From Bacillota bacterium (lineage in GTDB: Bacteria > Bacillota > Dethiobacteria > Dethiobacterales > Dethiobacteraceae): a DNA stretch of 64,000 nucleotides. Location: positions 1 through 64,000 of the forward strand of contig QLUR01000011.1 in assembly GCA_018725565.1 (NCBI GenBank), written 5' to 3'. Below the pieces are notes generated by a model. That model searched no databases. It was not told the origin of the DNA and was given only the letters and a program-made list of their open reading frames with translations. This document shows positions 20,026 to 54,332 of the stretch, one piece after another; position 1 is the first letter of the stretch, and each line of letters starts with the position of its first letter. Made by a program: the position numbers and the translations under genes.

Positions 20026-20853
20026 TTATTTCTCGCGTTCGGGCAGGCTTTCCCTGGTAAAGGCCCGGTGAGCGTCTGCCACCACATCCGGGAAAGCAGC
20101 TTGGTCCGGAGGAGGTATACTTTCCTCCAGGCGGAGAAAAAGAAAAAATTCTATATTGCCTTGCGGTCCGCGCAGCGGAGAATAAGTAACCCCTGCTGCC
20201 GCATACCCCTCACTTGCCGCGGCAGCAGCTACCCGCTCCAGTACAGCCAGATGGTCGGCCGCCGTTCTGACTACACCGCCTTTGCCTACCCGCCCCTTGC
20301 CCACCTCAAATTGCGGTTTGACAAGAGCGATTACCTCCGGGACAGCCAGTCTTTTCAGCACAGGAAAAACAAGAGTCAGGGAAATAAAAGAGACATCAAC
20401 CGCGGCTAGGTCCGCCTGTCCCCTGATTTGCCCGGGTGTAAGCAGGCGGATGTTTGTCCGTTCCATCACCACTACCCGCTCATCCTGTCGCAGTCGCCAG
20501 TCCAACTGGCCGTAACCGCAATCAATACTGTACACTCTGGCGGCACCGGCCTGCAACAGGCAGTCGGTAAACCCGCCGGTGGAGGCACCAACATCCAGGA
20601 CAACCCTGCCGCTGACCTGAACGGGAAATTCCTGCAGTGCTTTAACCAGCTTATCCCCGCCACGCGAAACAAAGCGCGGCGGAGTTAGCACCTGCAACTC
20701 CGCGCTGCTGGAGACCGGCATCCCCGGCTTACCGGCCGGACGTCCCCCCACCTGTATGAGACCAGCCATCACCGCCGCCCGGGCTGCGGAACGATTCTGG
20801 AAAAACCCCCGTTCCACCAAAAGGCAGTCCAAACGCACCCGAGTCGTGCTCAC
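20026..20853 (-). CDS. tlyA: TlyA family rRNA 2'-O-methyltransferase (S4-FtsJ)
   Basis: The 275-residue protein starts with an S4 RNA-binding domain (RLDCLLVERGFFQNRSAARAAVMAGLIQVGG) followed by a FtsJ-like methyltransferase domain with the SAM motif VVLDVGASTGGFTDCLLQAGA. DLAAVDVSFISLTLVFPVL and ALVKPQFEVGKG complete the domain. Family members methylate 16S and 23S rRNA; some are called hemolysin A for historical reasons. The GTG start at 20853 overlaps the dxs stop (GTGA), suggesting translational coupling. Confidence 0.93.
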   Translation of the reverse strand: MSTTRVRLDCLLVERGFFQNRSAARAAVMAGLIQVGGRPAGKPGMPVSSSAELQVLTPPRFVSRGGDKLVKALQEFPVQVSGRVVLDVGASTGGFTDCLLQAGAARVYSIDCGYGQLDWRLRQDERVVVMERTNIRLLTPGQIRGQADLAAVDVSFISLTLVFPVLKRLAVPEVIALVKPQFEVGKGRVGKGGVVRTAADHLAVLERVAAAAASEGYAAAGVTYSPLRGPQGNIEFFLFLRLEESIPPPDQAAFPDVVADAHRAFTRESLPEREK

Positions 20854-22739
20854 GGGCCGTCACCCTTCTTCTCTCCGGCCAATTGCAGGCAGGCGGAAAC
20901 AATTGCCTCAGCTGTCAGGCCGACCTCCGCCAGTAAAATTTCCCTGGCGCCATGCCCGACAAACCGGTCAGGAACACCCAGCCTCAGCAGAGGCCGGGAA
21001 AGCATTCCGCTTCCGGTCAGCAATTCCAGTGCCGCCGAGCCGAAACCACCGGGCAGGGTATGTTCCTCCACCGTCAGCATGCCGTAACGTACTGACCCGG
21101 CCACTTCCCGCAAAAGGAACTCATCCAACGGTTTGACAAAGACCGGGTCAACCACGGCAGCGGAAAGACCAAGGCGCGACAGGCGCTCCGCCGACTCCAG
21201 AGCAAGGCTGACCGCAGTTCCCACCGCCAGTATGGCCACATCTTCCCCCTTGCGCAGCAACTCTCCCCGGCCCCAGGGCAAACAGCGCGGCTCCTCCGGC
21301 GGCAACCCCCTCCCCTTGTCCCGAGGGTAGCGGACGGCCAGCGGGCCGTCATAAGCAAATCCTGTAAACAGTGCGTGGCGCAGCATATTCTCATCCCTTG
21401 GCGCGATAATCGACATGTTGGGAATATGACGCAGGTAAGCCAGGTCAAACAGCCCGTGGTGTGTTTCCCCGTCCTCCCCGACCACGCCGGCCCGGTCCAA
21501 AGCAAACAGCACCGGCAGCTGCTGCAGGCATACATCATGCAAAATCTGGTCATATGCGCGCTGCAGGAAAGTAGAATAAACAGCCACCACCGGCCGGTGC
21601 CCGCCGGCAGCCAGACCCGCGGCAAAGGTTACAGCATGCTGTTCGGCAATGCCCACATCAAAAAACCTATCCGGATATGTTTTGGCAAACTGCTCCAGCC
21701 CAGTGCCGCTTGCCATCGCCGCCGTAATGGCCACTATTTTGCGGTCGGCCGCAGCAGCCGCCGTAACGGTGGCTCCGAACACTTCCGTGTAAGTCGGGTT
21801 GCCTGAACGCCGGAGAGAAACGGGCTCACCAGGGTTAAACGGGCCGACTCCGTGGTAAACGTCCGGGCTGCCTTCAGTAAAATCAAATCCCTTGCCTTTT
21901 TTGGTCAATACATGGATAACAATTGGACCTTTCATGCTCCTGACACTGCGCAGGACGGCCAGTAAGGCCTCCAGCTGGTGGCCGTTGACCGGGCCGAGAT
22001 ACGTGAAGCCCAGCTCTTCAAAAATCATTCCCGGCACCAGCAGGTATTTCAGGGCGTCTTTCAGCCGCTCTGCCGACTTGACCATCCGTTCGCCGATAGC
22101 CGGGATTTTTCTAAGTATCTCTTCGACGTCTTCCTTAACACGGAAGTATTTTGGATCAGTGCGCAACCGGCCGAGATAGGCCGCCATACCGCCGACGTTT
22201 TGGCCGATTGACATTTCGTTGTCATTCAGGATAACGAGCAGGTCCGTTCCGGCGTGGCCGGCATGATTCAGTGCCTCAAAGGCCAAGCCTCCGCCTATGG
22301 CCCCGTCACCGATCACAGCGATCACGCGGTGCTTCCGTCCGTGCAGGTCGCGTGCCTTCGCCATTCCGAGCGCCGCTGAAACCGAGGTGGAACTATGCCC
22401 AGTTTCGTAAACGTCATGAACACTTTCCCGACGCTTGGGAAAACCGCTCAACCCCCTGAAGCGCCGCAGCGTGTCAAAGGTTTCCCGCCGCCCGGTCAGC
22501 AGCTTGTGGACATAAGATTGGTGACCGACATCCCAGATTATCTTATCCTCGGGACTGTTAAAAACAGTATGCAATGCTATAGTCAGCTCCACCACTCCCA
22601 GATTGGAGGCCAGGTGGCCGCCGTTTTGCGCCACGGTCTCGAGCAGGAAAGAGCGCAGCTCGCCAGCCAGTTGCCCCAGTTCCGCCACACTCATTTTTTT
22701 CAGGTCCCGCGGCTCATTTACCATGGACAGCAATTGCAC
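20850..22739 (-). CDS. dxs: 1-deoxy-D-xylulose-5-phosphate synthase
   Basis: The 629-residue thiamine diphosphate enzyme carries out the first step of the MEP isoprenoid pathway. Motifs include VWDVGHQSYVHKLLTGR-type sequence near residue 70, the ThDP-binding block starting GDGAIGGGLAFEALN, NDNEMSIGQNVGG, the catalytic Glu in GIAEQHAVTFAAGLA, and the C-terminal transketolase domain (VVDPVFVKPLDE). The GTG start has AGGAG 6 bases upstream. oapA ends 10 bases before it and ispA lies upstream, so two isoprenoid genes bracket the OLE locus. Confidence 0.96.
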   Translation of the reverse strand: MQLLSMVNEPRDLKKMSVAELGQLAGELRSFLLETVAQNGGHLASNLGVVELTIALHTVFNSPEDKIIWDVGHQSYVHKLLTGRRETFDTLRRFRGLSGFPKRRESVHDVYETGHSSTSVSAALGMAKARDLHGRKHRVIAVIGDGAIGGGLAFEALNHAGHAGTDLLVILNDNEMSIGQNVGGMAAYLGRLRTDPKYFRVKEDVEEILRKIPAIGERMVKSAERLKDALKYLLVPGMIFEELGFTYLGPVNGHQLEALLAVLRSVRSMKGPIVIHVLTKKGKGFDFTEGSPDVYHGVGPFNPGEPVSLRRSGNPTYTEVFGATVTAAAAADRKIVAITAAMASGTGLEQFAKTYPDRFFDVGIAEQHAVTFAAGLAAGGHRPVVAVYSTFLQRAYDQILHDVCLQQLPVLFALDRAGVVGEDGETHHGLFDLAYLRHIPNMSIIAPRDENMLRHALFTGFAYDGPLAVRYPRDKGRGLPPEEPRCLPWGRGELLRKGEDVAILAVGTAVSLALESAERLSRLGLSAAVVDPVFVKPLDEFLLREVAGSVRYGMLTVEEHTLPGGFGSAALELLTGSGMLSRPLLRLGVPDRFVGHGAREILLAEVGLTAEAIVSACLQLAGEKKGDGP

Positions 22740-22749
22740 TGTCTGCTCC

Positions 22750-23343
22750 TCACTTTCTCCGTGGCGGTAGCTGCCGGCCGAAAAACAGGCGTCCGGGTAA
22801 AACTGCCTCTATCTTAACCAAAACTGCTGCCGTCCAAAGCAAAATATCGGTTGAACGTTCAATGGCCACCGCCTTGCCAAACGCCTTACCTCCCACAGTC
22901 AAGGCTGAAATCAGGCCGGTTATGACGATGCTGACAGCGGGACTTTCATTTACAACCCCTGTAACGGCCAGACGGAGCACCAGAAAAGCAGCTAGCACTC
23001 CACTGACAATATTGGCAATATCGCCCACCACGTCGTTGCAAAAGTTAGCCACCCGGCCGGCATTGCGTACCAGGTACAACGCTTCCCTGGCGCCGCTCAC
23101 TTTTTTGGCCGCTTTAGCCAACAGCGGAACCTCATCGGCAGCCGTGGCGGCGATGCCGATCATGTCAAACAGGATGCCGATGAAAACTACCGCCAGCAGG
23201 ACAAGCAGCGCGGCGATGAAGGATTCGACAATGCCAAACAGCAACTGCGTAGTTACGCTAAGCAAAACAGCCAATACAAAAGTCAACAGGGTAGTAGTGG
23301 CCACCCAACGCAAATGTTGTCCATTTTTCCTGTTTTGGTTCAC
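22750..23343 (-). CDS. oapA: OLE RNA-associated membrane protein OapA
   Basis: The 197-residue protein has four or more transmembrane segments and contains GILFDMIGIAATAADEVPLLAKAAKKVSGA, RNAGRVANFCNDVVGDIANIVSG and a final helical hairpin. The DxxxD motif falls at residues 104-108, the position I recall for the conserved motif of Bacillus halodurans OapA. The GTG at 23343 is chosen because AGGAG lies 8 bases upstream; a longer frame to 23586 reads through the RNA gene and is not plausible protein. OapA binds OLE RNA at the membrane and is linked to stress and Mg tolerance. It lies directly after the RNA and before dxs. Confidence 0.85.
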   Translation of the reverse strand: MNQNRKNGQHLRWVATTTLLTFVLAVLLSVTTQLLFGIVESFIAALLVLLAVVFIGILFDMIGIAATAADEVPLLAKAAKKVSGAREALYLVRNAGRVANFCNDVVGDIANIVSGVLAAFLVLRLAVTGVVNESPAVSIVITGLISALTVGGKAFGKAVAIERSTDILLWTAAVLVKIEAVLPGRLFFGRQLPPRRK

Positions 23344-23384
23344 CGGATTCGCTCCTGTATTATCGGCTGTATTTTGGCCCGATA

Positions 23385-23985
23385 AAAAAAAGACTTTATC
23401 TTGATTATAAAATGTTACCGTAAGTGAGCAACCCTGCAAGTAAACGTTACGGCTTGAGGTCCAGCAGGTTTTCCCAACCGGCCGCCAGAATGTCACCATT
23501 CTGACCGTTTCCGTTTCAGACCGGTTCTGCCGTGTTGCCAGCGGCAGGGCTGGATTGCCACTTAGTCCGTACTTTAATCCCTGCAAAGTCTCCCTGTCAG
23601 GAACAGTCTAGGGGTTTTCCCCGATAATACAGAACACGCTTTCTATCCTCTTTTGCAGTGCAGGTTTCATTTGCCACACTCCACCTGCACCACTCAAGGC
23701 AGGCTACACTGTACACAGCGCGCACCGCATACAGGTTCTTCCCAAGCTGTAATCCTTTACCCAAAAGGTAATTCACCACACGCTTTGGGTCTCCACGGGG
23801 CCAGGGTCTACGCCTGCATGCCTTTGCAGATCGCCCCGATCCCTTAACTCCCAGCACCAGCCCCCGACTGGGCGTCGGCGGCCCGCACCAAGAACTTCAT
23901 CGGTGTGCCCTTTACGGATTTTTAGGCCCGTCCTCGAAAGCGGTTGTACTAACTAGAATACTGCGCCACCTACGGTTTCATGTTA
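23385..23985 (-). ncRNA. ole: OLE RNA (ornate, large, extremophilic)
   Basis: About 600 bases without a credible protein gene lie between the ispA terminator and oapA. The length, strand and neighbours (xse, ispA upstream; a DxxxD membrane protein and dxs downstream) are those known for OLE RNA loci of anaerobic and extremophilic Firmicutes. The stretch is GC-rich and full of short inverted repeats, for example around 23850-23940, as expected for a structured RNA. An apparent 86-residue frame inside it is basic, Cys/Arg-rich and featureless. Boundaries are estimates: the 5-prime end from the promoter and the 3-prime end from the known size. The assignment rests mainly on context, as I cannot run a covariance model. 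Confidence 0.8.
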
Positions 23986-23987
23986 TC

Positions 23988-24017
23988 ATTGTAACACGTT
24001 CGCTGCCAGGGACGCAA
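23988..24017 (-). promoter_or_regulatory. candidate promoter of OLE RNA
   Basis: The minus strand reads TTGCGT, 18 bases, TACAAT, beginning right after the ispA terminator. Transcription would start near 23981, giving a transcript of OLE length up to oapA. Confidence 0.5.
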
Positions 24018-24050
24018 AACCTGCCACCCGTGTTCACGGTGTCTGGCAGG
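24016..24050 (-). terminator. terminator after ispA
   Basis: CCTGCCA and TGGCAGG, with inner CCGTG/CACGG pairs, form a strong hairpin followed by TTTT on the minus strand, about 100 bases after the ispA stop. It separates the folD-xse-ispA run from OLE RNA. Confidence 0.75.
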
Positions 24051-24147: not shown

Positions 24148-25050
24148 CTAACATTCACGGTTAACAAGGAAATCTGCCAGAACGAGCAGCTGACCCGCTT
24201 TGTCACCAAACGGCGCAAGGGCAGCTTTGGCTGAATTCAGGGTTTCCGTTGCTTTCCGTTTTGCTTCCGCCAGGCCGAACATTGCCGGATAGGTAACTTT
24301 TTGCTTTCGCAAATCCGAGCCGGGTTTCTTGCCCAGCACTTCTAAATCACCGACAATATCCAGGATATCATCGGCAATCTGAAAAGCAAGCCCGGCATGT
24401 TCAGCAAAGCTGTTCAGCTGTGCCAGGTCCCCGGGACTGGGCTCCCCCAGCAGTGCGCCGCTGCGGACGGCGCAGGAAAACAGCATACCCGTTTTGTGTC
24501 GGTGTATGTAGTCCAGCGTTCCGGCATCAACCTTTCGGCCCTCGGCGAGAAGATCAACTACCTGCCCGCCGATCATACCGGCAGCGCCGGCTGCAGCGGC
24601 CATCTCCTGCACCAGGCGTACCACGGTCGCCGCAGGGAACAGGTGCGCCGTCTCCCTGGCCAGCAGTTCAAAAGCTAGGGTTAGCAGTGCGTCTCCGGTC
24701 AAAATAGCAATGGCCTCCCCAAAGACACGGTGATTCGACAGGCGTCCGCGCCTGTAATCATCGTTGTCCAGCGCCGGCAAGTCGTCGTGGACCAGCGAAT
24801 AAGTATGGACCAGTTCCAGTGCGCAGGCCACCGGCAGGGCATGTTGCCGGGGAATTGAGTAAATGTCGGCGGCAGCCAGCGTCAGCAGCGGCCGCAAGCG
24901 CTTGCCGCCGGCAAAAACGCTGTAGCGCATGGCCCGGTAAATCTCTTCCGGGTATGCTTCTTCCGCCGGCAGATAGCGTTCCAGCGCCCTGTCCACCTCG
25001 GCAATCAAGGCCCGTATCTCAACCCGCACCGGCAGCGCGCCTCCCTGCAT
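24148..25050 (-). CDS. ispA: (2E,6E)-farnesyl diphosphate synthase family (polyprenyl synthetase)
   Basis: The 300-residue trans-prenyltransferase has both aspartate-rich motifs: first VHDDLPALDND (DDxxD), second FQIADDILD. KRLRPLL near the N-terminus binds the diphosphate. The KVTYPAMFGLAEA segment is typical of the short-chain IspA type that makes farnesyl or geranyl diphosphate. The ATG at 25050 overlaps the xseB stop as TAATG, indicating translational coupling. It joins the MEP pathway gene dxs downstream in isoprenoid synthesis. Confidence 0.94.
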   Translation of the reverse strand: MQGGALPVRVEIRALIAEVDRALERYLPAEEAYPEEIYRAMRYSVFAGGKRLRPLLTLAAADIYSIPRQHALPVACALELVHTYSLVHDDLPALDNDDYRRGRLSNHRVFGEAIAILTGDALLTLAFELLARETAHLFPAATVVRLVQEMAAAAGAAGMIGGQVVDLLAEGRKVDAGTLDYIHRHKTGMLFSCAVRSGALLGEPSPGDLAQLNSFAEHAGLAFQIADDILDIVGDLEVLGKKPGSDLRKQKVTYPAMFGLAEAKRKATETLNSAKAALAPFGDKAGQLLVLADFLVNREC

Positions 25051-27453: not shown

Positions 27454-30400
27454 TTAAAATCCTTTTTGTCGCATGCTGGCAGCCAGCCAGTTCTCGCTGC
27501 TCTGGCAAAAGCCGGACTCCTTAAAAGCCGGAGCAACGCTTGGGTTTATTGCCAAAGTCAGCTTGCCGCTTTCCGCCAAGCGTTCCACCGGATAAACCGG
27601 TTTCTGCAGCGAAAAAGGCGCGTCATCCGGGGAGAGCGCGGCATAGTCCGGTACAACCGTACAGATTTCCCGCCAGATATCCTCCACCGTGGCAAGCTTC
27701 TGGTAATACCCCATCATAGCCATCATATCCAGCAGAACCTGCCAGTTCTGCTTACCGGTAATCGCCGGCAAAGCCGGTTGTAAACGCTGGATACGCCGCT
27801 CGCTGCTGGTATACGTGCCACTGGTCTCAGCGAATCCGGCTGCCGGCAATACTACGTCCGCTTTCCTGGCCAGTTCTGTCAGGAAAATGTCCTGGACAAC
27901 CAGCAGATCAGCCTCCGCAAGTTTGGCGGCCTGTTCAGCGGTTGGCTCCTCACCGAAAACAAAGGCAGCCTTCATTTTGCCGGCAGCCAAGGTCTGCAAG
28001 GCCTCCTCGCCTGATAGGCCAGGGTTGCCCGGCACCGTTGCCTGCCAAAGACTGCTTAATGCAATTCTTGCCGTCTCGTCAGTAACTTTGCGATACCCGG
28101 GCAGGAATTCCGGTGAAATGCCCATGTCGGAACTGCCCTGGCTGTTACAATGTCCTCTCAGGACAATAATCCCCCGCCGTGGGCGGCCGACTTTACCGCA
28201 TAGAGCCGCAAAACTGGTCAATGCCCTGACCGCCTCCGCAGTGAGGCGGCTGCTGCCCAGCAGCAACAAGCCGGTCGCTGCCGCGGAAAAATTGCGCGCT
28301 ATCAATTCAACGTCAGCAGCCGTCAGCCCGCTGCCTTCCAGGAGCTGAGGCAACTTAGCAGTTCTGAGTGTTCCTGCCGCCCGCTCAAAGTCTTCCAGCC
28401 AGCGCTCTGCAAAAAGTTTGTCGCACAGATTCTGTTGCAGGAGGGCAACCGAAAAAGCAGTAAAAACGCCGGCCCCAGCATTACTATGAACGGGGAAAAA
28501 CCTGGTCGCGTATTTGGCCAAGCGGCTGTTCTCCTGATCCACTACCCATACTTGTTTACCCTGCTGGGCGGCTTGCCTAACCTTCAGCATTGCAACCGGG
28601 TATTCTGGCAGGTCGGCGCCCACTACCAAGAGATTATCCGCCGCCGCTATTTCCGCATAAGAACTGGTGGAAACATCTCTTCCCAGCACGTCAGCCACAG
28701 GGCTTGCCGGCTCAGACAAGCTGTTCAGGTGATTTGTGCCAAAAACAGCCCTCGCCAGCTTCTGGATCAGATACGCTTCTTCGTTGGTATAACGGGACCC
28801 GGCAAAGACAGCTATTTTCTCACCGCCGAAATGGGCTTTGATAGCTTTAGTTTTCTTGGCAATCCGCAACAATGCATCCTGCCAGCTTGTTTCTTGCAGT
28901 ACGCCGTCCGTGCGTACAAGAGGTCTAGTAATCCGCTCCCGGCTGTTATGATAGCCGAAACCAAAGCGTCCTTTTTTGCATAGCAATCCATTGTTAGCAG
29001 GCCCATCGGCTGCAGGCAGGACCCGCGCGATAGTGTCGCCGACCACTTCGATCTGCAAGGCACAGCCCACGCCGCAGTAGCCGCAAATGGAAGGCGTCCG
29101 CCGCGCTTCCCAGGGTGCCGGCTTAGCAAAGGGCAGTGTTTCCACCAGCGCCCCGGTAGGACAGACAGCCACACACTGGCCGCAGGCCACACAGGATGTC
29201 TGCTCCAGCGGCAGGTCGAGCGAGGGACTGACATAAGCCTCAAAGCCACGTCTTACCAAGCCCAGCGCCTCTGCTCCTATAATTTCACTGCAGGTTCGCA
29301 CACAAAGGCCGCACAGGATACATTTACTTGGCTCGCGCCGAATCAGGGGATGGCTGACAACCTGTACGGCACGCCGCTCGCCGATGATCCTCTCCGGTTT
29401 GGCCGAGTAGAGATGTGCAAAGCTGCGCAGTTTACACTCAAAAGCATCGAAACAGCCGCACTCCAGGCACCTTTGCCCCTCTTGCGCGCAAGTCTCCGCT
29501 GTCAGGCCCTGCTCGATCTCCTGGAAGCTTTGCACGCGCACGGCAGGCAGCAGTACCGGCATCTCAACCTTTGCCTGAGCCGGCACATCCTTATAATCTT
29601 CCGCTGTCAGATCCTTCTCCTGCAGATTATATGAAGTCCGGAATGGCGCCGCTGTCCCGCTTCTCAGGTACTCCTCAATTACTTCCGCCGCACGTTTCCC
29701 GGCGGCGATAGCTTCAATGGCGATACCGGGACCGGTAACCGCGTCCCCTCCGGCAAAAATGCCGGGGGAACTTGTGGCAAAAGTTTTTTCATCCGCCAGC
29801 AACGTGTTGTGGCGGCTCACGGCAACATCGTCCCTGTCCAGAACAGCCACATCAACATCCTGTCCGATAGCCGCAATTACCGTGTCAACTTCCAGAGCGA
29901 AAAAAGCTCCGGGGATGGGAACAGGGCGGCGCCGGCCCGAAGCATCGGCGTCTCCTAGCTCCATTTTTTGGCAGGTCATCTGCAGCGCAGCGCCGTTCTC
30001 TTCCAGCTTAACCGGCGCGGTCAGCAGGTGGAACTCAACCCCTTCCTCTTCTCCCTCCTCAACTTCTATTGGTTGCGCCGGCATTTGCTCCCGCTCACGC
30101 CGGTAAACTACCATTACCTGCTCCGCACCAAGCCTGCGAGCGGTTCTGGCCGCATCCATCGCCGTATTGCCGCCGCCTATCACGGCGACCCGATTCCCAA
30201 TACTGACCGGTTCATTCAGCATCACGGCCCGCAGAAACTCCGCTCCGCCGATAACGCCCGGCAGGTCCTCGCCAGGTACCCCCATGCGCTTACTGTTCTG
30301 AGCCCCGATCGCCAGATAGACCGCGTCATAACCGCTTTTCAACAGGTAGTCGATAGTAAAATCCTCGCCAAACTGCACGTTTACCTGAGCTGTTACGCCC

Positions 30401-31188
30401 AAGGACAGTACCTGACGGATTTCAGCGTCCAGAATACTTTTGGGTAAACGGTACTCCGGGATGCCGTAGCGCAGCATCCCTCCCATCTCCGGCAATGATT
30501 CGTAAATTGTTACAGCGTGACCGCGGCGCCGCAGGAAATAAGCAGCAGTAAGTCCGGCCGGGCCAGATCCGATGACCGCAACCTTCTTCCCAGTGTTTGC
30601 GGCCACTTCCGGCACATAAGGCTCAGCAGAGGCCATGTCAAGGTCAGCAACCAGCCTTTTAAGGTAGCGGATGGACACCGCTCCCTCCTTCAGCCTGCGG
30701 CGGCAGTTTTGTTCGCAGGGGGCAGGGCAGACCCGGCCGATGGAAGCAGGCAGCGGCATAAACTCTTTAACCAATTGCAGTGCTTCTCTGTACTGGCCGT
30801 TGGCAATCAGGCCCACATAACCTTGCGCATCGCAGTTGGCCGGGCAGGCCAGCACGCACGGGGCGCGACAATCACCGCGATGGTCGGAAAGAATCAGTTC
30901 CAAAGCAGTTTTACGGGCCTGCCTGATTTTTTCGTTATTAGTGCAGATAACCATCCCATCACTTATTTTAGTGGCACAAGCCCGCAGCAGTTTAGGCATC
31001 CCTGCCACTTCCACCAGGCACAAACCGCAGGATGCGTAAACTTCCAAGTCGCCGCTGTGGCACAGCGTAGGAATAATGACCCCGTTTTCCCTGGCCACAT
31101 CAAGAATTGTCTGCTCCGCTTCGCCCGTTAATTCCCAGCCGTCTATATTTATCTTACACTTACTCATCAGCCTGCTCACTCCCCCCAT
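27454..31188 (-). CDS. large NfnB/NuoG-like iron-sulfur flavoprotein with a molybdopterin-type domain
   Basis: The 1244-residue fusion contains, in order: a 2Fe-2S domain (Cys43, 54, 57, 71); a GltD/NfnB-like segment with iron-sulfur cysteines (107-162), an FAD motif GSGPAGL (207-213) and an NAD(P) motif GGGNTAMDA (338-346); two 4Fe-4S motifs (623-633, 666-676); and a molybdopterin-oxidoreductase-type domain opening with CGYCGVGC (702-709). Where formate dehydrogenases have the Cys/Sec-His pair, this protein has NSLSEPASP (about 822-830), so classical formate oxidation is unlikely, and no C-terminal dinucleotide-binding domain follows. It is encoded directly after NuoE- and NuoF-like subunits. 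The best analogue I know is the Sporomusa-type Nfn (Stn) ferredoxin-dependent NADH:NADP transhydrogenase. The function is inferred. Confidence 0.8.
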   Translation of the reverse strand: MGGVSRLMSKCKINIDGWELTGEAEQTILDVARENGVIIPTLCHSGDLEVYASCGLCLVEVAGMPKLLRACATKISDGMVICTNNEKIRQARKTALELILSDHRGDCRAPCVLACPANCDAQGYVGLIANGQYREALQLVKEFMPLPASIGRVCPAPCEQNCRRRLKEGAVSIRYLKRLVADLDMASAEPYVPEVAANTGKKVAVIGSGPAGLTAAYFLRRRGHAVTIYESLPEMGGMLRYGIPEYRLPKSILDAEIRQVLSLGVTAQVNVQFGEDFTIDYLLKSGYDAVYLAIGAQNSKRMGVPGEDLPGVIGGAEFLRAVMLNEPVSIGNRVAVIGGGNTAMDAARTARRLGAEQVMVVYRREREQMPAQPIEVEEGEEEGVEFHLLTAPVKLEENGAALQMTCQKMELGDADASGRRRPVPIPGAFFALEVDTVIAAIGQDVDVAVLDRDDVAVSRHNTLLADEKTFATSSPGIFAGGDAVTGPGIAIEAIAAGKRAAEVIEEYLRSGTAAPFRTSYNLQEKDLTAEDYKDVPAQAKVEMPVLLPAVRVQSFQEIEQGLTAETCAQEGQRCLECGCFDAFECKLRSFAHLYSAKPERIIGERRAVQVVSHPLIRREPSKCILCGLCVRTCSEIIGAEALGLVRRGFEAYVSPSLDLPLEQTSCVACGQCVAVCPTGALVETLPFAKPAPWEARRTPSICGYCGVGCALQIEVVGDTIARVLPAADGPANNGLLCKKGRFGFGYHNSRERITRPLVRTDGVLQETSWQDALLRIAKKTKAIKAHFGGEKIAVFAGSRYTNEEAYLIQKLARAVFGTNHLNSLSEPASPVADVLGRDVSTSSYAEIAAADNLLVVGADLPEYPVAMLKVRQAAQQGKQVWVVDQENSRLAKYATRFFPVHSNAGAGVFTAFSVALLQQNLCDKLFAERWLEDFERAAGTLRTAKLPQLLEGSGLTAADVELIARNFSAAATGLLLLGSSRLTAEAVRALTSFAALCGKVGRPRRGIIVLRGHCNSQGSSDMGISPEFLPGYRKVTDETARIALSSLWQATVPGNPGLSGEEALQTLAAGKMKAAFVFGEEPTAEQAAKLAEADLLVVQDIFLTELARKADVVLPAAGFAETSGTYTSSERRIQRLQPALPAITGKQNWQVLLDMMAMMGYYQKLATVEDIWREICTVVPDYAALSPDDAPFSLQKPVYPVERLAESGKLTLAINPSVAPAFKESGFCQSSENWLAASMRQKGF

Positions 31189-31199
31189 AAATCGTACTC

Positions 31200-32963
31200 C
31201 TATTCCACCAAAACTGCGTTAACCTTGCAGGCGTCATAACAGTTTCCGCACCGCACGCACATCTCCTGGCTGATGATGTGCACCGCCTTTTTCTCACCAG
31301 TTATTGCCGCCGTCGGGCAGCGCCTGGTACAGAGACCACAACCCGTACAGGACGCGGCGTCGATTGTGTAACTAAGCAGTTCGCGGCACACCTTTGCCGG
31401 GCACTTCCGTTCCCGGAGATGAGTTTCATACTCCTCCCGGAAATACTTCAGGGTCGTCAGCACCGGATTTGGTGCCGTCTGCCCCAGGCCGCACAAAGAT
31501 CCTTCCTTGACCTCAAGAGCCAGCTCGTACAGTAAGTCCAACTCTTCTAGCTGTGCTTTGCCCTCCGTAATGCGGACCAGTATCTCCAGCATCCGCTTGG
31601 TGCCGACACGGCAGTGGGTACATTTGCCGCACGATTCATTCTGGGCAAAGTTGAGGAAAAACCTGGCCATATCAACCATACAGGTGGTCTCGTCCATGAC
31701 AATCATCCCGCCGGAACCTACGATAGCCCCGGTTTTCACGATGGACTCATAGTCCACCGGAGTGTCTAGCAAGCTTTCCGGCACACATCCCCCGGATGGG
31801 CCGCCCAGTTGGATGCCTTTAAAATTTTTCCCCCCGGGGATACCGCCCCCGACCTCAAAAACAATTTCCCGCAGGGTAATTCCCATGGGCACTTCAATTA
31901 ACCCGCCGCGCCTGATTTTCCCCGCCAGTGCAAACACTTTTGTCCCGCTGCTCTTCTCTGTTCCGTAAGCCTTAAATTTGTCGCCACCGTTAAGAATGAT
32001 CCACGGTACGTTGGCAAAAGTTTCTACGTTATTGATACACGTCGGCTTTTTCCAGAGGCCCTGTTCGGCCGGGAACGGCGGCTTAAGCCTGGGCATGCCT
32101 CGCTCGCCTTCCAGGGAGGCCAGCAGCGCTGTTTCCTCGCCGCAGACAAAAGCACCGGCCCCTTTTTTGATTTTTAAAATAAAATTAAAATTAGTACCTA
32201 AAATGTTTTCCCCCAGGAACCCGGCCTCTCTGGCAGCCTCGATAGCCTTTTCCAGGCGGACAATGGCCAGCGGATATTCCGCCCGGACATAAACATAGCC
32301 GACAGAAGCGCCGATAGCGTAGGCAGCCAGCAACATGCCCTCCAGCACCGCGTGCGGGTCTCCTTCAATAATGCTGCGGTCCATAAAAGCTCCGGGGTCA
32401 CCTTCGTCCGCGTTACAGACGAGGTATTTAATTTCTCCCTTTGCCGCGCGGGTGAAGCGCCATTTCAACCCGGTCAGAAACCCGGCGCCGCCGCGGCCGC
32501 GTAAGCCTGATGCCAGCATTTCCCCGATTACCTGTTCAGGGCTCATCTCCAACAAAGCTTTGCGTAACGACTCATACCCGCCTCTACTCCGGTAATCGGA
32601 GATTGACTCCGGGTCAATATCACCGCAATTGCGGAGCGCTACCCTGACCTGTTTGCTGAAAACGTTCTCCTTTTCATGGGAGACCTGCAACCCGTATGGC
32701 GGTACGCTTTTTAACAAATGCTCCTCAACAAGCTGCACAGCCTTATCTTCTGTGACAGCGCCATAATAGTCGTTTTCACCCACCGGCGAGATTATCTCCA
32801 CTATCGGCTCAATGTAGCACATACCTATACATCCGGTTCGCCTCAGTTCCACGTCCAAACCGTGTTTTGTGATTTCCCTTGCCAGCGCCGCATAGGTTTT
32901 CTGGCCTCCCGCGGCAATGCCGCAAGTGCTTAAACCGACTTTAACCACTGTTTTTCCCTGCAA
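31200..32963 (-). CDS. NuoF/HydB-like NADH-binding flavoprotein subunit
   Basis: The 587-residue protein has an N-terminal thioredoxin-like 2Fe-2S domain (STCGIAAGG and GCIGMCYIEP), then the NuoF core. GRGGAGFLTGLKW binds FMN and GAGAFVCGEETALLASLEG binds NADH. An SLBB domain follows, then the 4Fe-4S site ESCGKCTHCRVG, and finally two extra 4Fe-4S motifs (CTGCGLCTRRC, CVRCGNCYDAC). This architecture is that of HydB, StnB and other bifurcating enzymes, not of respiratory NuoF. It starts at TTG 32963, behind AGGAGG, one base after the nuoE-like stop. It links NADH to the large subunit encoded next. Confidence 0.9.
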   Translation of the reverse strand: MQGKTVVKVGLSTCGIAAGGQKTYAALAREITKHGLDVELRRTGCIGMCYIEPIVEIISPVGENDYYGAVTEDKAVQLVEEHLLKSVPPYGLQVSHEKENVFSKQVRVALRNCGDIDPESISDYRSRGGYESLRKALLEMSPEQVIGEMLASGLRGRGGAGFLTGLKWRFTRAAKGEIKYLVCNADEGDPGAFMDRSIIEGDPHAVLEGMLLAAYAIGASVGYVYVRAEYPLAIVRLEKAIEAAREAGFLGENILGTNFNFILKIKKGAGAFVCGEETALLASLEGERGMPRLKPPFPAEQGLWKKPTCINNVETFANVPWIILNGGDKFKAYGTEKSSGTKVFALAGKIRRGGLIEVPMGITLREIVFEVGGGIPGGKNFKGIQLGGPSGGCVPESLLDTPVDYESIVKTGAIVGSGGMIVMDETTCMVDMARFFLNFAQNESCGKCTHCRVGTKRMLEILVRITEGKAQLEELDLLYELALEVKEGSLCGLGQTAPNPVLTTLKYFREEYETHLRERKCPAKVCRELLSYTIDAASCTGCGLCTRRCPTAAITGEKKAVHIISQEMCVRCGNCYDACKVNAVLVE

Positions 32964-32964
32964 C

Positions 32965-33507
32965 CTACAGCTCCTCCTTTGCAATCTGCGCTTCTCCGGC
33001 CGACTGCTCTTTCTCCCGCAGCTGCCCAATCAGGCGGCGCACCTGGGCCGGCGTCATATTGGCGTACGCTTCTCCATCAACCACTATCACCGGGGCTAGG
33101 CTGCAGCAGCCTACGCAGGCCACTCTTTCCAAAGTAAACATCCCGTCCTCCGTGGTTTCTCCTCCGGCAATGTTCAGCTCATCACTAATGGCACGCGTTA
33201 GGGACTTTGCGCCGTTAACGTGGCAGGCGGTTCCCTCGCAAACCATTAAATTAAACCTGCCAACCGGAGCAAGCCGGAACTGGGCGTAAAAAGTTACAAT
33301 TCCGTAAATTTTTGCCGGAGAAACATGCAGTTTTTCCGCCATATAAGCAATGCTTTGCTTTGGAATGTAGCCAATCAGTTCCTGTACATCCTGCAGGATG
33401 GCAATAATTGCTGCCGCCTCTCCCCGGTATTTGGCAATTACTTCATCCAGCTGAGCATACGGGAGACTCTTTTCCTCCGTTGTCTGACAGGCGCATCCGG
33501 CCGCCAT
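32965..33507 (-). CDS. NuoE/HydC-like 2Fe-2S subunit
   Basis: The 180-residue thioredoxin-fold ferredoxin has the four ligands in CEGTACHVNGA and CVGCCSLAP. A helical N-terminal region (YAQLDEVIAKYRGEAAAIIAILQDVQELIGYIPKQ) is typical of NuoE and HydC. The ATG at 33507 has GAGGAG 10 bases upstream; the frame extends to 33615 without support. It is the first gene of the three-gene redox run. The gap to nusB (about 330 bases, 33508-33836) contains a palindrome and must hold the promoter. Confidence 0.9.
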   Translation of the reverse strand: MAAGCACQTTEEKSLPYAQLDEVIAKYRGEAAAIIAILQDVQELIGYIPKQSIAYMAEKLHVSPAKIYGIVTFYAQFRLAPVGRFNLMVCEGTACHVNGAKSLTRAISDELNIAGGETTEDGMFTLERVACVGCCSLAPVIVVDGEAYANMTPAQVRRLIGQLREKEQSAGEAQIAKEEL

Positions 33508-33661
33508 AGCACACCCTCTCCTCATCACATTAGTCGATACACACAGGCGAGGTATTTCGCTGCCCCGCTCCGGCTTCCCTGCCGCACCGCTAATTATTTT
33601 TAAAAAGAGCAGCAATTAATTCTATATTTCGGTATGATTACATTAAAAACATAGACAGGGG

Positions 33662-53219: not shown

Positions 53220-53732
53220 CTATCTGGTGGTGCCAAGCCCGTTGGGCGAGACCCAGGTAAAGCCGGCTCTGCCGGCTGGGATGATGGGGGCTGCTGGGGG
53301 GGCTGGGGTATCAGGCACAACAATATCGCTAGAATCATACCGGACCGCATAGAGTGGATGCGTTCCGGGAGGTAGCCCCGTTGGCACGGCCGGCAGCGCC
53401 TCTGCTGGATCGGTGATATCGCCGTCGCCATTGCCGAAGTGAGCGTCTATGAAGGCTATGCCGGAAGGAGTAGTGCCATCAAGCGTCTCCGGATACCTCA
53501 ACCGCGGGCCGGCGGCGGTAATCCCCAGGTAAAAGGCGTCCAGGGCGTTTAAGATCATGCGTTCGTTGGCGATATCCGCCCCGACACGCGCCGCGCGGAT
53601 GTTTTCCGTCACGCGCGGCACGGCGATGGCCGCCAGGATGCCGAGGATGGCCACCACGACCAAGAGTTCCACCAGGGTGAAACCGCGCCTGTTACGGCGG
53701 CTGCGCTGCAAAACAACAGCAATTTTCAGCAT
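53220..53732 (-). CDS. pilA: major type IV pilin-like prepilin
   Basis: The 170-residue prepilin has a basic leader (RSRRNRRG) cleaved before FTLVELLVVVAILGILAAIAVPR, a textbook class III signal with Glu at +5 and the long hydrophobic alpha1 helix. The C-terminal domain is proline-rich (PDTPAPPAAPIIPAG). It starts at ATG behind AAAGGAG. The cyclic-di-GMP riboswitch lies about 480-560 bases upstream on the same strand, with repeat copy E between. By position and signal it is the most likely main subunit, but this is inference. Confidence 0.88.
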   Translation of the reverse strand: MLKIAVVLQRSRRNRRGFTLVELLVVVAILGILAAIAVPRVTENIRAARVGADIANERMILNALDAFYLGITAAGPRLRYPETLDGTTPSGIAFIDAHFGNGDGDITDPAEALPAVPTGLPPGTHPLYAVRYDSSDIVVPDTPAPPAAPIIPAGRAGFTWVSPNGLGTTR

Positions 53733-54207: not shown

Positions 54208-54292
54208 CTTCGGCGGCCCGGCTGTCAATAGGCTCATGGCCCTTAGACCCGCGGCTTTGCGTCCCAGCCTTTCGGCAGGTTAGCCTTTTCGG
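54208..54292 (-). ncRNA. cyclic-di-GMP class I (GEMM) riboswitch
   Basis: The minus strand contains the GEMM-I landmarks in order: AAAGGCTAACCTGCCGAAAG with the GNRA tetraloop, GGGACGCAAAGCC (the conserved junction), GCGGGTCTAAGG (tetraloop receptor side) and a closing GC-rich helix. A promoter TTGACG-17-TATCCT starts about 35 bases before the aptamer and a strong terminator follows. The pilin gene is the next gene downstream. Signal-dependent termination in this position would tie pilin expression to cyclic-di-GMP; whether the ligand turns it on or off cannot be read with certainty. Confidence 0.85.
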
Positions 54293-54332
54293 TTCAGGGT
54301 TAATTGCGAAGCACTTTGTTACCTCTGACACA

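Follow-up and report, generated by a model that had tools for sequence, protein, structure and literature searches.

An OLE RNA gene with a shortened P9 directly upstream of oapA in a genome of the class Dethiobacteria

The stretch of DNA analyzed here (64,000 nucleotides, referred to below as the window) contains a complete OLE RNA gene followed directly by oapA, and the RNA encoded there has a shortened P9, from which the P9.3 arm is missing together with the palindromic kissing loop of bridge B3. Both the OLE/OapA identity of the locus and the shortening of P9 are held with high confidence. On every defining feature tested, the locus is a further member of the known OLE/OapA ribonucleoprotein (RNP) class, and by itself it adds just one more OLE genome. 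OLE is among the largest conserved bacterial RNAs of unknown biochemical function, that of Halalkalibacterium halodurans included. The B3 element is lost across nearly the whole class to which the window belongs and in several other families, and OLEs with a short P9 are natural variants for asking what role B3 has in dimerization, membrane placement, and the stress response.

The OLE RNA gene occupies positions 23985 to 23408 of the minus strand and matches the Rfam covariance model RF01071 with 476 bits (E = 1.4e-136; the gathering cutoff is 50 bits). The alignment spans model positions 1 to 616, for a gene length of 578 nt. The sequence-only reading of this DNA had taken a non-coding stretch of about 600 bases for OLE RNA and had named an Rfam covariance search of the minus strand as the check, with the lack of an OLE hit as the outcome that would speak against it; the match is instead strong and full length, and the coordinates then given, including a promoter at 24017, are correct. 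As in the OLEs of H. halodurans and Clostridium, the RNA aligns over its full length with conserved L4, L5, L6, and k-turn segments, oapA lies directly downstream, and the surroundings comprise isoprenoid, DNA repair, and sporulation genes, whereas the P9.3 arm with its palindromic loop is absent from the window RNA. Among the elements that are kept (all on the minus strand), the P4 hairpin with the L4 A-run GCCUAAAAAUCC (23914 to 23931) belongs to bridge B1 and the L5 loop GCCCA (23869 to 23873) to bridge B2, both being conserved in the comparison set, with roles as described for the dimer structure (PMC12286853). The L6 loop CAAAGGCAUG (23817 to 23826), also an element of bridge B2, is recognized from its sequence and the comparison set.

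P9 lies at positions 23647 to 23699 of the minus strand, and its shortening is seen in the Rfam alignment, in the flank-to-flank length, and in covariation. At the tip of P9, 3 nt of the window RNA stand for 46 model positions in the Rfam alignment, and the segment between the conserved flanks measures 31 nt, compared with 70 to 80 in most OLEs. Over 141 distinct OLEs the length of P9 is sharply two-peaked, with 48 sequences at 19 to 55 nt and 93 at 65 nt or more. A palindromic loop was found in none of the 48 short-P9 OLEs when the loop region was searched for palindromes of the defined kinds; nearly all of the 93 long-P9 OLEs carry one. The two groups show no noticeable difference in the lengths of P7 and P12-P13 or in L4, L5, and L6, and P8 is slightly shorter in the short-P9 group (median of 30 versus 35). 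In the window RNA, P7 aligns to the Rfam model without a sizeable deletion and P8 is 4 nt shorter.

The cryo-electron microscopy (cryo-EM) structure of OLE is an RNA dimer with three bridges, in which B1 is an A-A contact of L4, B2 joins L5, L6, and L7, and B3 is formed by the palindromic loop of P9.3 (GGCC, GAUC, or AGCU), which self-pairs with that of the second RNA (PMC12286853). Since the P9.3 arm and its palindromic loop are missing, B3 is predicted to be without its usual loop in the window RNA and cannot form through it. This comparison covers the parts of OLE other than domain 2, which is unresolved in the published structures, so that its contacts are not comparable.

The genome that carries the window (2.67 Mb, 98% complete) has one OLE and belongs with the Dethiobacter-like Bacillota, class Dethiobacteria. 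The earlier guess of a probable syntrophic or sulfate-reducing-type anaerobe is supported only in part, by this class placement and by the sporulation genes in the window. OapC is encoded between rpoC and rpsL (L116:3217-3528) and matches PF01248 with 43.4 bits; its best match in the PDB is the YbxF-type structure 3v7e (E = 2.6e-11), followed by YbxF 4lck. The 110-amino-acid protein encoded between map and infA (L115:6367-6699) is likely OapB, given a weak similarity to the OapB structure 7k9b (E = 3.6e-4, with archaeal eL14 scoring slightly better) that is supported by the position of the gene; synteny and the PDB search picked up this candidate, while the Pfam KOW model did not. The ribosomal protein bS21 was found in all 20 genomes of the family, including that of the window. 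In H. halodurans OLE, a CCUCC anti-Shine-Dalgarno mimic has been described for the binding of bS21, and this motif is absent from P6 of the window RNA (about 23790 to 23840). Most OLEs of both P9 classes also lack it (it is found in P6 of 12 out of 126 parsed OLEs), so the absence is not special to the window; with bS21 nonetheless present throughout the family, the missing CCUCC was rejected as a peculiarity of this RNA.

Two shortened forms of OLE are described in one published report (PMC11332333). Variant 1 (TANB77), found in many clades, has a shorter P7, P8, and P9 and in many cases no OapB site, and its clades are largely devoid of OapB and OapC; variant 2 (RF39) has neither P7 nor P8. 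The window RNA resembles both in being shortened with respect to full-length OLE, and the short P9 is also a trait of variant 1. It is nevertheless unlikely that the short P9 is simply the published variant 1 and nothing new: a shorter P9 in many clades would agree with that assignment, as far as the accessible part of the report goes (PMC11332333), but the window P7 and P8 are of normal length, the P12-P13 region is kept, and the genome has homologues of the OapB and OapC that variant-1 clades largely lack. The retention of P7, P8, and P12-P13 together with these homologues likewise sets the window RNA apart from variant 2. Judged from its sequence, the window OLE is neither variant 1 nor variant 2. 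A 2025 review accounts for the absence of P7 and P8 from some OLEs by pointing out that neither takes part in dimer contacts (PMC12265935); the window presents the opposite case, its RNA retaining both and having lost a contact of the dimer. No description of OLEs losing P9.3 alone was found in the literature texts, figures and supplements aside, and published alignments may already include the form lacking P9.3 without remarking on it.

Two isoprenoid genes flank the OLE/oapA pair, as had been claimed from the sequence, namely an ispA-type farnesyl diphosphate synthase gene upstream (24148 to 25050, minus strand; NF045485, 365 bits) and dxs downstream (20850 to 22739, minus strand; TIGR00204, 836 bits). 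The same-strand (minus) cluster around them includes folD, xseA, xseB, tlyA, recN, spoIVB, spo0A, and a gene named NAD-kinase-like from its sequence only. In the literature, OLE is likewise placed among clustered genes of isoprenoid and central metabolism, DNA repair, and sporulation (PMC12265935). In almost all loci examined, oapA follows OLE directly. The promoter expected downstream of ispA is likely the site at 24017 to 23988 on the minus strand, just before the start of the RNA, where TTGCGT (24017 to 24012) is followed after 18 nt by the extended -10 element TGTTACAAT (23996 to 23988); the generic promoter scan did not flag it. Of 130 loci across the Bacillota, 110 have the pattern TGnTAnnnT in the 50 nt preceding OLE, as opposed to 6 of 130 for a control stretch further up, and although these loci are related and the count does not equal independent events, it suggests that OLE broadly has its own promoter, which we consider probable. 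A polycistronic transcript has been described for OLE in H. halodurans. As for the proposed ispA terminator, an imperfect hairpin at 24050 to 24020 of the minus strand, followed by TTTTGCGT, was read by eye as a possible terminator, and the generic scan passed over it.

Between OLE and oapA, the window has a T-run only. A hairpin followed by a T-rich stretch (such as AAGAGTTTGCCTGCAAACTCTTTTC) is found in this gap in loci L002, L003, L005, L007, and L008, and these hairpins are possible terminators or attenuators. An alternative would make OLE chiefly a cis-acting element, a long structured leader of oapA instead of an RNP in its own right; it would draw on such attenuator-like hairpins in some relatives and on the proximity of the two genes, with the OLE end lying 64 nt upstream of the oapA start on the same strand. 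We regard this as very improbable, as the OLE of H. halodurans is abundant, its deletion phenotypes are common to OLE and its protein partners (PMC12054373, PMC12265935), and OapB, OapC, and bS21 are encoded far from the window locus.

The short P9 has a marked phylogenetic distribution. In a tree of 143 OapA proteins, a quick build with many weak branches, the window falls in a supported clade of 44 entries, of which 41 have a short P9, and the short form requires 8 changes compared with 41 for shuffled labels; it also recurs outside this clade. Because phylum-wide Rfam matches (the best 150 places) favor long-P9 OLEs, prevalence was taken from exact-pattern searches of the same genomes. Among 398 genomes of the phylum, taken as one sample, these searches gave 5 short and no long P9 in the class of the window and 7 short and 112 long outside it (Fisher p = 3.5e-6, indicative only since the genomes are related), with the exact flanks missing some OLEs of both kinds. 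Of the 13 short-pattern matches, the one in G379 was discarded, its sequence showing it to have arisen by chance. The relatives named here come from the 80 best matches of one scan. Locus L119 (G063:C128) is the sole parsed OLE from the class of the window to have a long P9 with a GGCC loop, which may point to the place within this class at which the P9 arm was lost or gained.

The remaining P9 stem was analyzed in 30 short-P9 sequences, using the real locus sequence of each. Paired cells amount to 96.4%, and 68 cells show double changes, compared with 23.6 in shuffles; sliding the partner strand destroys this covariation signal. Such strong covariation, together with the recurrence and clade-wide spread of the short form, indicates that the short P9 is a maintained structure and not decay. 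That the window OLE might instead be a decaying or non-functional copy would fit the absence of an arm that most OLEs possess, and the wider lineage may include cases of loss, since a close metagenome-assembled genome (MAG) of Dethiobacteria type (L022/G481) has oapA without an OLE match. In that MAG, no OLE was found in the 328 nt upstream of oapA (JANKMV010000230.1, 1 to 919) or in the whole 2.7-Mb genome, which is either a real case of OapA without OLE or an assembly fault (contig coverage of 3.4). Against decay stand the score of 476 bits with the conserved motifs kept, an intact oapA, a promoter-like site in place, and a short form common to about 40 species-level genomes, in which what is left of the stem shows strong compensatory change, and we give this explanation scarcely any weight.

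The oapA gene (22750 to 23343, minus strand) has a GTG start preceded by the ribosome-binding site AGGAG (23352 to 23356, minus strand). It encodes, as predicted earlier, a membrane protein of 197 amino acids with the DxxxD motif at residues 104 to 108. The identification as OapA holds: the protein can be aligned with the OapA proteins of 155 OLE-linked loci, and the better match to another family that would have spoken against it did not appear. D104, G107, and D108 are invariant throughout a collection of 155 distinct OapAs from other loci, nearly all of them OLE-linked, and within this collection the window protein is about 42 to 49% identical to Bacillus-type OapAs. Its length, DxxxD motif, FDxxG and NDxxGD segments, position after OLE, and tentatively its CNNM-like fold are those of known OapA, from which nothing of note differs. 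OapA is expected to have four transmembrane helices; the predicted structure (pLDDT of 75) has long helices at residues 2 to 38, 42 to 68, 95 to 128, 135 to 162, and 164 to 181. Its top five fold matches are all CNNM/CorB/CorC chains, with probabilities of 0.57 to 0.99 and E values of at least 0.15, which tentatively suggests a CNNM-like fold, and no meaningful match came from searching the PDB with an OapA sequence profile. The same genome separately encodes a 434-amino-acid CNNM protein of MpfA type, and the presence of OLE and MpfA in one genome is uncommon but published.

The Pfam CNNM match of the window protein is below threshold (24.4 bits, with a cutoff of 28.4), which fits the weak CNNM similarity already reported for OapA (PMC11332333). 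With the MpfA/CorC/CorB transporters (CNNM-CBS-CorC) it shares this similarity and, tentatively, the CNNM-like fold, whereas it carries DxxxD and lacks their tandem CBS and CorC domains, neither of which was found by the domain search of the 197 residues. In the same source, DxxxD is what separates OapA from CNNM/MpfA, the CNNM domains being without it (PMC11332333). That the protein is an ordinary metal transporter of CNNM/MpfA type beside OLE by accident, as the subthreshold match and the leading CNNM structures might hint, can be practically dismissed in view of its DxxxD motif, the missing CBS and CorC domains, its place next to OLE in nearly all loci, and the separate CNNM protein of the genome.

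By analogy with H. halodurans, the window OLE most likely works as a membrane RNP. The RNA, putatively made from its own promoter, would bind OapA, the CNNM-like membrane protein whose gene comes next, and OLE and OapA together with OapB, OapC, and bS21 would form a membrane-anchored particle. If its function carries over from H. halodurans, this particle would help the cell to cope with Mg2+, alcohol, cold, and energy stress. The leading reading of its assembly, given about an even chance, is that the window OLE dimerizes through B1 and B2 only, with the P9 arch as an add-on, in which case B3 would be dispensable. The loss of B3 could also mean that the RNA does not dimerize or does so otherwise. 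For the Dethiobacteria-type OLEs as a group, we place at roughly one-half the proposal that they build the membrane particle without the P9-P9 bridge, the B3 arch being accessory to a core of L4/L5/L6 contacts, or else adopt another stoichiometry or geometry. If true, the B3 arch seen by cryo-EM would be an accessory absent in several lineages, and the L4/L5/L6 contacts would be the essential core.

OLE was found in 14 of the 20 genomes of the family. Among the genomes with no OLE match at first, three (G007, G008, and G009) carry a 3' fragment of OLE at a contig end, ahead of oapA, and in a fourth (G015) OLE is very probably cut at a contig end too (L017). In G016, which has no OLE match, oapA lies near the contig start. 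G019 has neither an OLE match nor an oapA-like match and has three CNNM matches over the cutoff. OLE-negative relatives were set aside as a finding, those examined carrying OLE fragments at contig ends, and so were split OLE genes, which had been suggested by two OLE matches in each of two family genomes; each pair consists of two halves, located at contig ends. Breaks in MAG contigs often fall within OLE, at its most conserved segments (L013, L014, L015, L016, L017, L018, L019, L020, L206, L207, and L209), so that OLE is probably undercounted in metagenome assemblies, much as rRNA is.

Elsewhere in the window, a c-di-GMP-I (GGC) riboswitch at 54208 to 54294 of the minus strand (66.6 bits) lies upstream of a gene (53220 to 53732) that encodes the N-terminal motif of type IV pilins, in a type IV pilus cluster. 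At 27454 to 33615 of the minus strand, a 1,244-amino-acid fusion protein joins an NADPH-glutamate-synthase-like oxidoreductase to a formate-dehydrogenase-like molybdopterin domain; its gene lies next to NuoF-like and NuoE-like genes, and together they probably encode an NAD-linked formate dehydrogenase complex.
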